64,000 bases of DNA from positions 1 through 64,000 of the forward strand of contig JAFXQV010000009.1 in assembly GCA_017526785.1 (NCBI GenBank), in the 5' to 3' direction. How positions within the stretch are numbered: position 1 is the first letter of the stretch; the number at the start of each line of letters is the position of its first letter. The stretch comes from Oscillibacter sp. GTDB taxonomy: Bacteria > Bacillota > Clostridia > Oscillospirales > Oscillospiraceae. The notes below the pieces were generated by a model. That model saw nothing but the letters and a program-made list of their open reading frames with translations. It had not been told where the DNA came from and ran no database searches. This document shows, piece by piece, positions 40,446-56,320 of the stretch. Position numbers and translations under genes: made by a program.

Positions 40446-40835
40446 GTGAAAATGCGTCTCATAGATGATGAGCGGCATACAGGCCCCTACCTGCAAATCA
40501 TCGACACGACCGAGCAACAGTACAGGCTCATCATCGGCTGGAGAAAGATGCGCTGGAACCGCGCAAAGAAATGGCTGGAGGGGTACGCCGACCTTGACCT
40601 TTTGAACAAGGTTCGCGGGATAGCGCAACTCCCGCCGAGCGTGGAGCGGCGGCGCGTGGAACTCCAGCGAGTGCAAGACGCAATCAACCGGGAACGGGCG
40701 AACGACGAGCCGGAAGCCTTCTACCCGTTCCCGGTCAAGATGAAGCTGTACGCCCATCAGGTCAGAGGCGCGAACATGGCGCTCCTGAACTTCGGATGGA
40801 TTCAGCCGGGGACGGATAAGGGAACGCCGCCATGA
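40446..40835 (+). CDS. SNF2-type helicase, N-terminal piece
   Basis: A 129-residue protein that is the beginning of a phage SNF2 helicase: the usual run-up FYPFPVKMKLYAHQVRGANMALLNFGW is present, after which Walker A should follow. Instead the frame ends five residues after IQPGTDKG, and its stop codon overlaps the next ATG. The rest of the helicase resumes 1.8 kb downstream with KGFGFLFEMG. The GTG start has GGAGG 8 bases upstream. This looks like a gene split by insertion; whether the two pieces work together is unknown. Confidence 0.75.
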   Translation: MKMRLIDDERHTGPYLQIIDTTEQQYRLIIGWRKMRWNRAKKWLEGYADLDLLNKVRGIAQLPPSVERRRVELQRVQDAINRERANDEPEAFYPFPVKMKLYAHQVRGANMALLNFGWIQPGTDKGTPP

Positions 40836-41652
40836 AAGAACACATTTTATCCCTGAGCTACGGGAAAGACAGCATAGCCGCCATCGGAGCCATTCAGGAA
40901 CTCGGCTGGCCTCTGGAGCATATCATCCACGTTGAAATTTATGCCACGCAAACTATCCCGGCAGACCTTCCGCCCATGATGTCGTTTAAAGCGAAAGCGG
41001 ACGAAATCATAAAGGCCATGACAGGATTGACGGTAGAGCGCGTCAGACCGGAAAAGACCTATGAGGAACAGTTTTATACGAAATATTCCAAGCCGGACGG
41101 CGTGAGGTATGGTCAAATTTACGGCTGGCCTATGGTTTGCCATGGACATAACTTCGGCGCATGGTGCAATTCACGATTGAAAGTCAGCGCATTGAAGAAA
41201 GCGCAAAAAGGCCGCATTGTCTATATTGGAATCGCCGCAGACGAACCCGCCCGGTTCCATAATCTGTCGGACACAAAGAAGTCTCCGCTTGTAGCGGCTG
41301 GATGGACGGAATCGGATTGCCTGAGATGGTGTAAAGAGCATGACCTTCTTTCTCCGATTTATGAAACCGAAATGCGTAGCGGTTGCTGGTTCTGCCAGAA
41401 CCAACGCGTTGACGCATTGCGACGGTTGAGAAAGACCTACCCTGAATACTGGGCTTTGATGTTGAAGTGGGACGTAGACAGTAAGCGTCACTTCAGGCCG
41501 GACGGACACAGCGTCCACGATTACGAGCGGAGATTCAGCATGGAGGAGGCCGGACAATTAAACCCCGATGACCGCTCTTTCAGATGGAAGCGAATCTCCG
41601 AAACCGGATGATTCAGCCGGGGACGGAACCGTAAGCCGTCCCCGGTCAGGGG
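40795..41652. repeat. Direct repeat flanking the PAPS-reductase-like gene
   Basis: GATTCAGCCGGGGACGGA occurs at 40800-40817 and again at 41609-41626, with GGAT just before both. The second copy forms a perfect 10-bp hairpin, CCGGGGACGG with CCGTCCCCGG, at its own downstream side. The repeat brackets the inserted gene. Confidence 0.7.
40832..41611 (+). CDS. PAPS reductase-family PP-loop protein
   Basis: A 259-residue protein of the phosphoadenosine phosphosulfate reductase/adenine nucleotide alpha-hydrolase group. The PP-loop ATP-binding motif is SLSYGKDSIAAI, and cysteines occur in FGAWCNSRLK and SGCWFCQNQ. Such genes are common in phages; roles may include DNA base or sulfur chemistry, but no Dnd partners are seen. 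It starts inside the stop codon of the helicase N-terminal piece and ends in the second copy of a flanking repeat, so it appears to be an inserted cassette. Confidence 0.82.
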   Translation: MKEHILSLSYGKDSIAAIGAIQELGWPLEHIIHVEIYATQTIPADLPPMMSFKAKADEIIKAMTGLTVERVRPEKTYEEQFYTKYSKPDGVRYGQIYGWPMVCHGHNFGAWCNSRLKVSALKKAQKGRIVYIGIAADEPARFHNLSDTKKSPLVAAGWTESDCLRWCKEHDLLSPIYETEMRSGCWFCQNQRVDALRRLRKTYPEYWALMLKWDVDSKRHFRPDGHSVHDYERRFSMEEAGQLNPDDRSFRWKRISETG

Positions 41653-41664
41653 AGGCAGGACAGG

Positions 41665-42420
41665 ATGTGCAGGAAAGTAGAGGAATGGCGGGACATTCCC
41701 GGCTTTGACGGATTCTATCAGGCAAGCGACTGGGGGCGGATACGGTCGTTTTACCGCAATAATGGCGGCAACGGCAACATCCCGACAAGAGCGGACAGGC
41801 CGCATTTTCTGAAACGGACGTTTACCAAAGCTCACGGAAAAATAGGTCAGGCCTATGTCGTTCTGAAGCGGAACGGCGTCCGGACGCCCATGACGGTGGG
41901 ACAAGCCGTGGCGTCGGCCTTTTTCGGGGAGCTTCCGCCCGGTACGGTGGCCTGTCACAAAGACGGCGACACTGCGAATGACTGCCTGTGGAATCTTGAA
42001 ATCCGGGACAGTTTAACGCAATTTCGTATGTATGCGCGGAATAATTTCACAAAGCAAAACCGGACGCCCGTCGTAAAGATTGACCGTAACCTTTTGGTCA
42101 TTGACGCCTATCCGAGCATTGCGGCGGCGGCAAGGGCTAACGGCTTTCGTCGCGGACAGATGTGGAAATTCTGCGCAATGCAAATTCAGTTTTCCGTATT
42201 CGCGCCGGACGATTGCATTTATACCTATGACGATGACGCGCACATCCGGGAGGCCGTGCGCAGGGCAATGGCGGAACTGGACGCCCTCGGCGCACGGTAC
42301 AACGACCCCGGAACGGAACGCTATTATGACCTTGAACCGGAGGAAACGCCAGAGCTTGACGGTTCCGCGCAATGGGAGGACGCCCCGCCGCTGGTCGGGG
42401 GGGGGTACTGCGGATATTGA
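41665..42420 (+). CDS. HNH homing-type endonuclease with NUMOD domains
   Basis: A 251-residue protein. It begins with a NUMOD4 motif (EEWRDIPGFDGFYQASDWGRIRS), has an HNH core (VACHKDGDTANDCLWNLE), and then a NUMOD1-like DNA-binding helix (IDAYPSIAAAARANGFRRGQM). Free-standing HNH endonucleases of this type spread by cutting intron-less or gene-less alleles. It lies between the two halves of the SNF2 helicase gene, which makes it a likely cause of the split. GGGGAGG precedes the ATG. Confidence 0.88.
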   Translation: MCRKVEEWRDIPGFDGFYQASDWGRIRSFYRNNGGNGNIPTRADRPHFLKRTFTKAHGKIGQAYVVLKRNGVRTPMTVGQAVASAFFGELPPGTVACHKDGDTANDCLWNLEIRDSLTQFRMYARNNFTKQNRTPVVKIDRNLLVIDAYPSIAAAARANGFRRGQMWKFCAMQIQFSVFAPDDCIYTYDDDAHIREAVRRAMAELDALGARYNDPGTERYYDLEPEETPELDGSAQWEDAPPLVGGGYCGY

Positions 42421-44235: not shown

Positions 44236-45378
44236 ATGGGACGCCTGACGCACCTTTCCCTGTTCAGCGGAATCGGCGGTCTTGACCTTGCGGCGGAGGC
44301 GGCTGGCTTTGTCACAATCGGACAGTGCGAACAGGCGGACTTCCCCACCAAGATACTCGAAAAGCACTGGCCGGATGTTCCGCGCTGGCGGGACATCCGG
44401 GAGCTGACGCGGGAGAGCTTTTATGAAAAAACAGGTAGACGGACAGTTGACCTTATCTCAGGCGGGTTTCCCTGCCAGCCCGTATCTGTCGCCGGGAAGC
44501 GCAGAGGCCGTGACGATGACCGTTTCCTCTGGCCGGAAATGCTTAGAGTGGTACAGGAACTCCGACCCGCTTGGGTATGTGGTGAAAACGTTGCTGGAAT
44601 CGTCAGCATGGCACTCGACGATTGTATTGCTGGCTTGGAAAATTCGGGTTACGCCGTTGAAGTCCTGCTTCTTCCAGCTTGCGCCGTCGACGCCCCGCAC
44701 CAGCGAATGCGATGCGCAATTCTGGGCTACGCCGAACACAATGGACTATCTGCCTCAGAGGTCGCCGGAAGCATTGCTGAGGCAAGCCACGACAAGCCGA
44801 AAGGGGAGGACAAGACCCTCGAACCTTCGGGAGCAGGTATCGGAAGATACCATGAGGATGTGGCCTACGCCGACAGCGTCGGAAGCGACGCACGGCGGCC
44901 CGAATGCCAGATTGGGAAGCATGAAACTTTCCTCGGCGGCGGCAATGTGGCCCACCCCCAGAGCGAACAAAATCGGCGGGTACAGCAGTCCAGACTTCAG
45001 CCCGACGCTGGAGCAAGCGGTGATGTACCCGACGCCTACGACGGGAGCGGGGCTGTGCGGCGGGAGCGGGAACTTTCGCCAATTACAGGAATTGGAGGCC
45101 AGCGGGGAGATTACCCCGGAGGAAAGACGGAATATGGCGTCGGGGAGCGGAGGACAGCTCAACCCGGACTGGGTAGAAGCCCTGATGGGCTTTCCGGCTG
45201 GATGGACAGCGTTAGAGCCGGATGGCGGGACGGAAGCTGGGAAAACGGAATCCCCCGAATCGCAAAAGGCGTCCCGAACAGAGTAAGCCGCCTGAAAGCC
45301 CTTGGTAACGCCGTCGTACCCGCTCAATTTTATCCGATTTTCCGCGCAATCGCGGACAGTTATGAAAGGACGGATTGA
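44236..45378 (+). CDS. C5-cytosine DNA methyltransferase
   Basis: A 380-residue enzyme that methylates cytosine C5. Motif I is [10 protein letters not shown], motif IV is [10 protein letters not shown] with catalytic Cys80, motif VI is GENVAGI, PHQRMR resembles motif VIII, and the target/motif X end is [24 protein letters not shown] precedes the ATG. The middle-to-C-terminal part has unusual composition because a second gene is read in another frame over 864 bases. The recognition site cannot be told. It may protect phage DNA from restriction. Confidence 0.93.
44423..45286 (+). CDS. Overprinted gene inside methyltransferase gene
   Basis: A 287-residue frame lying wholly inside the C5 methyltransferase gene in a different frame. 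The ATG has GGGAGAGC 4-5 bases upstream. Features are [30 protein letters not shown], three MWPTP/MYPTP repeats and a conserved-looking end [21 protein letters not shown] have seen proteins with this last motif next to or within phage cytosine methyltransferase loci, which supports a true protein, but the match is from memory. The function is unknown. Confidence 0.6.
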
Positions 45379-54970: not shown

Positions 54971-56320
54971 ATGAGCGAGATGAGGATGGAAACAAGAAAG
55001 CTGGCAGACTTAAAGCCAGCGGAGTACAACCCCCGAAAACGGCTGACCCCCGACGATACGGAATATCAGGAACTGCGCCGTAGCCTTGAAACGCTGGACT
55101 ATTCAGACCCCATTGTGATAAACAGCGACGGAACCATCATCAAGGGACACCAACGCTGTTATATCATGATGGACATGGGACGCACGGAAGCCCCGGTCGT
55201 GGTCTTGGATATCCCGGACAAGGCCAAGGAAAAAGCCCTCAACATCGCCCTGAACAAAATCACCGGGCAATGGGACGAAACCAAACTCAAAGAGGTTTTG
55301 ATTTCCCTTGACCTCGAAGGGTACGACTTCAGCGTGACCGGATTCCAGCGTCAGGACTTGGAGGATTTGATACAGCTTTCCGACATTCCCCCGGAAGCAA
55401 AGGACGATGACTACGACCCGGACAAAGAAGCGGAACAAATCGAAACCCCGGAAAGCCGCCCCGGAGACATCTGGCGTCTCGGACGGCATCGCCTTCTGTG
55501 CGGGGACGCCACGAACCCCGCCGACATCGCCCGTCTGATGGGCGGCGCAAAGCTCGACCTCTCAATCACAGACCCGCCCTATAATGTGGACTACGGCGAA
55601 AAGACAAAGTTTCTGGAAGCCTACACAGGCCACGCCGGAAGCCGCCGCAACAGCGACATTCGGAACGATAAGATGAGCGGTCAGGCGTTCCATGAATTTC
55701 TGCTCTCGGCCTTCCGCAACATGAACGAGGCCATGCGGCCCGGAGCCGCCGCCTACGTTTTCCACGCCGAAAGCACAGGCTCCATTTTCCGTCAGGCTTA
55801 CGCGGAGGCAGGGTTAAAGCTGGCGCAATGCCTGATATGGGAGAAAAACGCCCTTGTCCTCGGACGGAGCGACTACCAATGGCGGCATGAGCCGATTTTG
55901 TACGGCTGGAAAGAAGGGGCGGCGCACTATTTCATAAATGACCGGACGCAGGACACCGTTCTTCTGGAAGAGCCTCCCGATTTCCAATCCATGAAGAAAC
56001 AGGAATTGCTGGCCTTCATCGACAAGCTCTTCCGGGACAACGAAAACCAGACTTCCGTGCTGTACGAAAAGAAACCCTCCCGGAACGCCCTCCACCCCAC
56101 CATGAAGCCCGTGCCGCTTATCGGGAAACTGATGACCAATTCCAGCAAGCCCGGATGGGCGGTCGGAGACTTCTTCGCCGGAAGCGGCTCCACGCTGATA
56201 GCGGCGGAACAGCTTGGACGGACGGCGTACCTCACGGAATACGACCCCATCAACGCCGACGTGATTATCCGGCGCTGGGAGAGCTTCACGGAACAAAAGG
56301 CGGTGCGTTTGGATGAGTGA
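54971..56320 (+). CDS. ParB-like/DNA methyltransferase fusion
   Basis: A 449-residue protein. Residues 1-100 are a ParB/Sulfiredoxin-like domain (ADLKPAEYNPRKRLT, IIKGHQRCYIM). The rest is an N6/N4 amino-methyltransferase with DPPY in LDLSITDPPYNVDYG, followed in order by the AdoMet motif DFFAGSGSTLIAAEQLGR. It methylates adenine or cytosine amino groups in an unknown site. Such fusions commonly precede terminase genes. GGAGGG lies before the ATG. Confidence 0.93.
   Translation: MSEMRMETRKLADLKPAEYNPRKRLTPDDTEYQELRRSLETLDYSDPIVINSDGTIIKGHQRCYIMMDMGRTEAPVVVLDIPDKAKEKALNIALNKITGQWDETKLKEVLISLDLEGYDFSVTGFQRQDLEDLIQLSDIPPEAKDDDYDPDKEAEQIETPESRPGDIWRLGRHRLLCGDATNPADIARLMGGAKLDLSITDPPYNVDYGEKTKFLEAYTGHAGSRRNSDIRNDKMSGQAFHEFLLSAFRNMNEAMRPGAAAYVFHAESTGSIFRQAYAEAGLKLAQCLIWEKNALVLGRSDYQWRHEPILYGWKEGAAHYFINDRTQDTVLLEEPPDFQSMKKQELLAFIDKLFRDNENQTSVLYEKKPSRNALHPTMKPVPLIGKLMTNSSKPGWAVGDFFAGSGSTLIAAEQLGRTAYLTEYDPINADVIIRRWESFTEQKAVRLDE

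Follow-up and report, generated by a model that had tools for sequence, protein, structure and literature searches.

Two overlapping genes in a phage region

The window, by which we mean the whole 64,000-nucleotide stretch of DNA analyzed here, is part of contig 18 in a bacterial genome of 2.34 Mb. The pair of genes at issue and their parts lie on its forward strand. The gene at positions 44236 to 45378, which we call alpha, encodes a predicted C5-cytosine methyltransferase (MTase) large subunit of 380 amino acids with motifs I to VIII and motif X. Alpha matched the Pfam family DNA_methylase (PF00145) over residues 6 to 179 (E = 3.7e-35) and phrog_363 (2.2e-74), and a profile of 40 alphas matched motifs I to VIII of HhaI (3.7e-37). 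The motif with the catalytic cysteine falls on invariant alignment columns at 44461 to 44487, and motif VIII (APHQRMR) occupies 44692 to 44712. These motifs are followed by a long insert with repeats of the VAYAD type and by a motif X segment at 45280 to 45327; the tails of 88 alphas aligned to canonical tails over this motif in hhalign with E = 2.1e-6 and a probability of 89%.

A second frame is open within alpha, as the original prediction had stated, with its own ribosome site, an ATG and the motifs that the prediction quoted. This gene, beta (44423 to 45286; 287 amino acids), is read in the +1 frame relative to alpha and ends at motif X of alpha. Its Shine-Dalgarno-like sequence, GGGAGAGC (44411 to 44418), lies inside alpha, four bases 5' of the beta ATG. 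The N-terminal part of beta (44423 to 44722), which contains SGRKC, LAWK and FQLAPS, runs over motifs IV to VIII of alpha. It is followed by an array of four modules, each marked by a T-P motif (TP modules; 44723 to 45157, with starts at about 44723, 44861, 44948 and 45026), in which MWPTP, MWPTP and MYPTP were all found and a related WATP stands 5' of them. A segment of 17 residues at 45158 to 45208 comes next, which we tentatively assign to C5-MTase motif IX. Beta matched phrog_1008 (2.2e-27), as did all ten of the relatives tried. A Pfam search with beta gave no match, betas of the class called type B below gave weak unrelated Pfam matches only, and the Pfam and PHROG scans found no nuclease match in beta.

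The neighbors of the pair are phage genes, among them an SNF2 helicase and, downstream, terminase, portal and head genes. Because these phage genes sit in a contig of a bacterial genome, the region is most likely a prophage; the alternative is a free phage contig that was co-assembled with the genome. The other PF00145 match of the host genome is a full-length single chain. No nuclease partner for the MTase was noticed among the genes scanned. Other genes of the region include, upstream of alpha, a PAPS-reductase-like gene (phrog_424) and a NUMOD4/HNH homing-type endonuclease (40832 to 41611 and 41665 to 42420). A single gene at 54971 to 56320 combines a ParB-like part with a DNA methyltransferase (phrog_498, 2.6e-149), which gives the phage region another gene for DNA modification.

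Conservation of the overlap and the frame under selection

When the synonymous codons of alpha were permuted, a +1 stop-free run that reached the 292 codons of the actual sequence arose in 13 of 20,000 permutations. The length of the beta frame by itself is only moderately strong evidence, since the antisense frames of alpha, a gene with a GC content of 0.59, also hold runs of up to 207 codons. It is conservation that decides for beta being a real gene. We compared the window with 125 loci, comprising the best 80 of 140 relatives from a scan of viral contigs with beta, 39 from a scan of viral contigs with alpha, and six named phage loci found with beta. A +1-frame beta homologue sharing more than 150 nt with alpha was present in 122 of these 126 sequences, the window included. 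The exceptions are a locus in which alpha ends early (L008), a remnant without alpha (L061), a locus cut by its contig end (L079) and a shifted one (L124); by the start-codon rule, L069, whose alpha is cut by the contig end, and L146, whose alpha is itself split, also lack a long overlap. The original prediction had named a lack of independent homologues of the inner frame, or stop codons in it in close relatives with an intact methyltransferase, as observations that would count against it. The relatives do not refute it: among the 39 viral loci fetched with alpha alone, 38 have an overlapping +1 beta homologue, and the 39th (L124) has it in the frame of alpha; the same overlapping arrangement was found in all seven bacterial-genome loci fetched with alpha. 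The longest +1 run had a median of 247 codons in 108 relatives of the pair (with values as low as 19 in wrongly parsed or odd loci) versus 66 codons in 27 canonical single-chain C5-MTases. These controls, the parsable ones among 30 loci taken from the bacterial family to which the host belongs, are imperfect, with a mean GC content of 0.47 versus 0.53 in the relatives.

A start signal is also enriched. In type A loci, where beta ends inside alpha, a Shine-Dalgarno-like 4-mer precedes beta in 51 of 79 cases, compared with 386 of 1,561 later +1-frame start codons of the same genes; this count covers betas that start 140 to 225 nt into alpha, with starts picked by rule and near-duplicates included (without them, the 51 loci become 38). 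The enrichment is supportive of beta translation, though no proof of it.

L061 (2986 to 3681) holds a beta tail with TP modules, motif IX and motif X but no alpha, directly 3' of an open reading frame that, read by eye, resembles a recombinase; this tail has the appearance of a fragment left behind at a site of integration. In Mycobacterium phage Seabastian (L146), alpha is annotated as two overlapping coding sequences (1507 to 1878 and 1862 to 2266), with the break after the ENV of motif VI. Streptococcus phage P0092 (L150) has a canonical single-chain C5-MTase at 1501 to 2364, with motifs IX and X in frame, and an annotated overlapping coding sequence of 139 amino acids in another frame (1652 to 2071) that bears no likeness to the beta family.

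We then followed selection along the two frames in four regions: R1, alpha before beta; R2, the beta start to motif VIII; R3, motif VIII to the beta stop; and R4, the beta stop to the alpha stop. The 103 type A loci were reduced to 83 by removal of near-duplicates and to 63 by leaving out 20 in which a regular expression did not recognize motif VIII, and gave 23 disjoint pairs, including the window paired with L088. A rule set the beta start of each locus, and a pair was left out of any region in which it had too few sites. Substitution rates at alpha phases 1/2/3 were 0.146/0.096/0.395 in R1, 0.168/0.096/0.291 in R2, 0.345/0.165/0.182 in R3 and 0.178/0.122/0.441 in R4. The wobble position of beta is alpha phase 1, and the rate at this phase exceeded that at phase 3 in 2 of 21 pairs in R1, 0 of 23 in R2, 21 of 23 in R3 and 0 of 13 in R4. 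Divergence at alpha four-fold sites was 0.459, 0.281, 0.145 and 0.533 in R1 to R4, respectively; the difference between R2 and R1 plus R4 was significant (Fisher p = 1.8e-14, for sites pooled over the 23 pairs and treated as independent). A stricter set of 27 loci and 9 pairs agreed (R3, 7 of 9; p = 2.6e-11). Thus, the selected frame switches along the gene: R1 and R4 evolve as alpha, both frames are constrained in R2, and R3 evolves mainly as beta. The original prediction had held that neither half is a shadow; this is borne out over motifs IV to VIII, while from motif VIII to the beta stop selection acts mainly on beta. Its broader claim, that the two frames encode two real proteins, is supported by the overlap conserved in 122 of 126 sequences, the phrog_1008 match and the phase test.

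Type B loci served as a control. The part of type B betas over which there is no alpha evolves as an ordinary coding sequence (0.247/0.192/0.463 by beta phase in seven pairs, one of which includes L069, whose class is doubtful). The wobble of beta in R3 (0.345) is slower than this beta-only wobble (0.463), so residues of alpha in R3 may be under some selection. Under permutation of beta-synonymous codons over R3, the alpha frame would be expected to remain without stops in 2.7 of 63 loci (p = 0.003 for the window). Every one of these 63 has an open alpha because only type A loci were selected; type A is nonetheless the larger class. The share of order-promoting residues in alpha R3 is 0.203, against 0.36 to 0.38 elsewhere in alpha. 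Because this share equals that of the beta-synonymous permutations (0.205 versus 0.203; below the permutation mean in 28 of 63 loci), we saw no selection on composition beyond the avoidance of stops. R3 of alpha is most likely a hydrophilic linker that is mainly kept free of stops.

Motifs IX and X and the module array

In 117 of 126 sequences, the +1 frame contains a motif-IX-like segment; five yielded no motif IX. Motif X lies in the frame of alpha in 96 sequences and in that of beta in 19, of which L113 and L115 are doubtful by the start-codon rule. The window and all of those 96 have a layout like that of M.EcoHK31I, with motif X in the large-subunit frame and the IX-like segment in the other. 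In type B loci (L007, L021, L024, L036 and others), alpha stops soon after motif VIII, and beta extends past the IX-like segment and takes in motif X. The regions around motif X in type A alphas and in type B betas are homologous (hhalign E = 2.3e-25), so the same segment is read in either frame. As a side observation, motifs IX and X are frame-shifted relative to alpha in four of the 126 sequences (L092, L094, L095 and L124), which may be decaying or shifted copies or may reflect sequencing errors.

The columns of the IX-like segment are nearly invariant, and the segment resembles the canonical RLQGFPDxF as seen in the single-chain controls. Its hhalign probability against canonical motif IX was 2%, however, and type B tails aligned to canonical tails over motif X only. 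Three type B betas matched the MTase profiles phrog_116 and phrog_363 near the IX-X end (8.5e-5 to 1.5e-8), in profile columns that may not be those of motif IX. An AlphaFold model of beta alone was of poor quality (pLDDT, 62; pTM, 0.31) and gave no convincing PDB match. Motif IX is thus a putative assignment and the weakest link of the interpretation given below.

To define modules, betas were cut at T-P motifs into pieces of 14 to 70 residues, a rule that also catches some N-terminal TP sites and makes the counts rough; 130 of 137 betas have one to six modules, 355 in total, and the window beta has four. In a first count, 37 of 2,951 pairs of loci with alpha identity below 40% have a common module at 65% identity or more, compared with 0 of 224 in a shuffled-residue null. 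A stricter count excluded N-terminal TP sites and required a complete alpha N-terminal part by rule, which dropped 26 of 130 loci; it found a common module in 19 of 1,557 distant pairs, involving 24 of 85 loci. In these 19 pairs, mean identities were 0.34 for alpha, 0.21 for the N-terminal part of beta, 0.73 for the shared module and 0.32 for the best other module pair, and in 15 of the 19 the position of the module within the array differs between the two betas. Single modules are therefore common to a minority of distant pairs, clearly above chance, a pattern that modules passing from one enzyme to another would produce. The modules may bind DNA and serve in target recognition, and the array hints at multispecificity.

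A probable methyltransferase in two polypeptides

The reading that we favor, and consider highly probable, is that the product of the locus is a single C5-cytosine DNA methyltransferase composed of two polypeptides, each encoded in its own frame of the same DNA, with motifs I to VIII and X (the catalytic domain) on alpha and the recognition region and motif IX (the small domain) on beta. Two findings lowered our confidence in it very slightly: motif X is the only part over which type B tails can be aligned to canonical tails, and the beta wobble in R3 is partly slowed. Translation from 44236 would give alpha as the large catalytic domain, with motifs I to VIII, a hydrophilic linker of about 190 residues and motif X at the end. 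Beta would have a separate ribosome site and start within alpha (44423), with about 100 N-terminal residues over motifs IV to VIII, then the four TP modules for target recognition and the motif-IX-like segment, and would stop where motif X begins. The two products would then assemble, beta acting as the small DNA-recognition domain; the original prediction that the inner product is a partner of the enzyme is supported to this extent, beta being very probably a subunit. For the phage, the pair would be an orphan modification enzyme, probably one that protects against host restriction.

An improbable alternative is that alpha is a complete enzyme whose long insert contains the recognition domain, beta being a regulatory or accessory protein that arose by overprinting. 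The repeats such as VAYAD in the insert, the slowed beta wobble there (0.345 versus 0.463) and the placement of the predicted target recognition domain (TRD) of M.EcoHK31I in its large subunit, in the passages of PMC3404938 that treat it, fit this view. The dominant selected frame from motif VIII to the beta stop is beta in 21 of 23 pairs, however, the order-promoting share of alpha there equals that of beta-synonymous permutations, and alpha of type B ends after motif VIII with motif X going with beta. Slightly less probable again is a single protein made by programmed frameshifting, in which translation starts in alpha, moves to the frame of beta past motif VIII and, for type A, returns before motif X. 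Such a product would account for the canonical order of I to VIII, TRD, IX and X, which is spread over the two frames in just that order. It would need two shifts in type A and would leave the N-terminal part of beta over motifs IV to VIII untranslated, yet this part is constrained and has a ribosome site 5' of it; alpha is also held open over the recognition region far beyond chance. That beta is a non-coding shadow, open through base composition, is very improbable: antisense runs of up to 207 codons show that open frames do occur in this gene, but the overlapping +1 homologue in 122 of 126 sequences, the Shine-Dalgarno signal, the short runs of the canonical controls and the phase test in relatives all contradict it.

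As to origin, the suggestion of the original prediction that a gene born by overprinting later became independent is not supported by the 126 sequences, where no intact separate beta stands beside an intact alpha. Neither gene as a whole appears to have been simply overprinted on the other. Over motifs IV to VIII, the frame of alpha would have to be the older and the N-terminal part of beta the newcomer, since these motifs are common to canonical C5-MTases; over R3, the informative frame is probably that of beta. The simplest history may be that a frame change after motif VIII broke a single-chain MTase, which internal initiation then rescued, motif X being kept in one frame or the other. Type B is scattered on the tree of alpha motifs I to VIII, with 11 label changes, at least 6 of them forced by well supported branches; the bootstrap is unsettled, several branches are long, and the doubtful labels of L113 and L115 could mean one change fewer. 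L008, a type B locus, lies in the same open eight-row fork as the window.

More tentatively, and at somewhat less than even odds, we propose that beta is an interchangeable rack of recognition modules. TP modules, mostly about 25 to 45 amino acids long, would be swapped between distant enzymes, up to six per beta and perhaps each for a methylation target of its own; in the other frame, the same DNA would be read as a linker of the catalytic subunit, and lineages would have switched repeatedly to and from the state with a short alpha and motif X in beta. If so, swapping must keep two frames open at once. The result suggests which polypeptide sets target specificity, and the locus offers a natural case in which, over about 1.1 kb, purifying selection acts first on one frame, then on both, next on the other alone and finally on the first again.

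Distribution in phages and comparison with known systems

The original prediction called such an overlap rare, which the searches do not support. Beta homologues occur in hundreds of phage records, namely 77 with the window beta as query, 572 with a mycobacteriophage beta and 197 with the N15 beta, in sets that may overlap and of which few records were opened; in the loci opened, the 572-record set has mostly a short-overlap, M.AquI-like form. The division of motifs was already described for M.EcoHK31I, whose large subunit has motifs I to VIII and X and whose small subunit has motif IX (PMC3404938, in the passages concerned). Two-subunit C5-MTases are given there as two exceptions, M.AquI and M.EcoHK31I, against which an overlapping layout of this type is common in phages. 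Some phages have both alpha and beta annotated, as overlapping methyltransferase or methylase genes, and the relevant passages of a Paenibacillus larvae phage paper list two DNA-cytosine methyltransferase genes without discussing an overlap. Others, such as N15 (gene 58 only; beta at L151, 1556 to 2200) and SEN5, annotate alpha only, so a probable gene is absent from the annotation of well-studied phages.

The small subunit of M.EcoHK31I (YGGCCR) is reportedly encoded within the large-subunit gene in a different frame. The window layout (type A) has, by description, the same division of motifs. It differs in that the published prediction puts the TRD in the large subunit, whereas selection in relatives points here to the small one, and in that M.EcoHK31I is part of a restriction-modification system, as a table in PMC6456624 shows, whereas no nuclease partner was noticed among the genes scanned. 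Type B, with motif X in beta, resembles by description M.AquI, a two-polypeptide C5-MTase (CYCGRG); the window differs from it in having motif X in alpha. A split between motif VIII and the TRD gives approximately the two domains, as described for circularly permuted variants with the C-terminal helix joined to the large domain (in part of PMC5944983). Alpha would correspond to the large domain and beta to the small, DNA-reading one. The profiles matched by beta and alpha, phrog_1008 and phrog_363, are both named DNA methyltransferase, and the names mention neither overlap, subunit role nor modules.

The second frame in the ShiLan element, where a second protein (HNH) lies out of frame in a phage methylase gene according to the passage describing it, is a homing nuclease in an inserted element, whereas beta lacks a nuclease match in the scans noted above. 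The multispecific C5-MTases of Bacillus phages are single chains, unlike the pair described here. Those of SPR, SP-beta, phi3T, rho11 and H2 carry several recognition domains in tandem per enzyme (PMC8936443, in the part concerned), a layout that the putative recognition modules of beta resemble by description. Two-part enzymes were known already; less expected is the apparent make-up of the hidden half as a row of recognition modules that can be exchanged.
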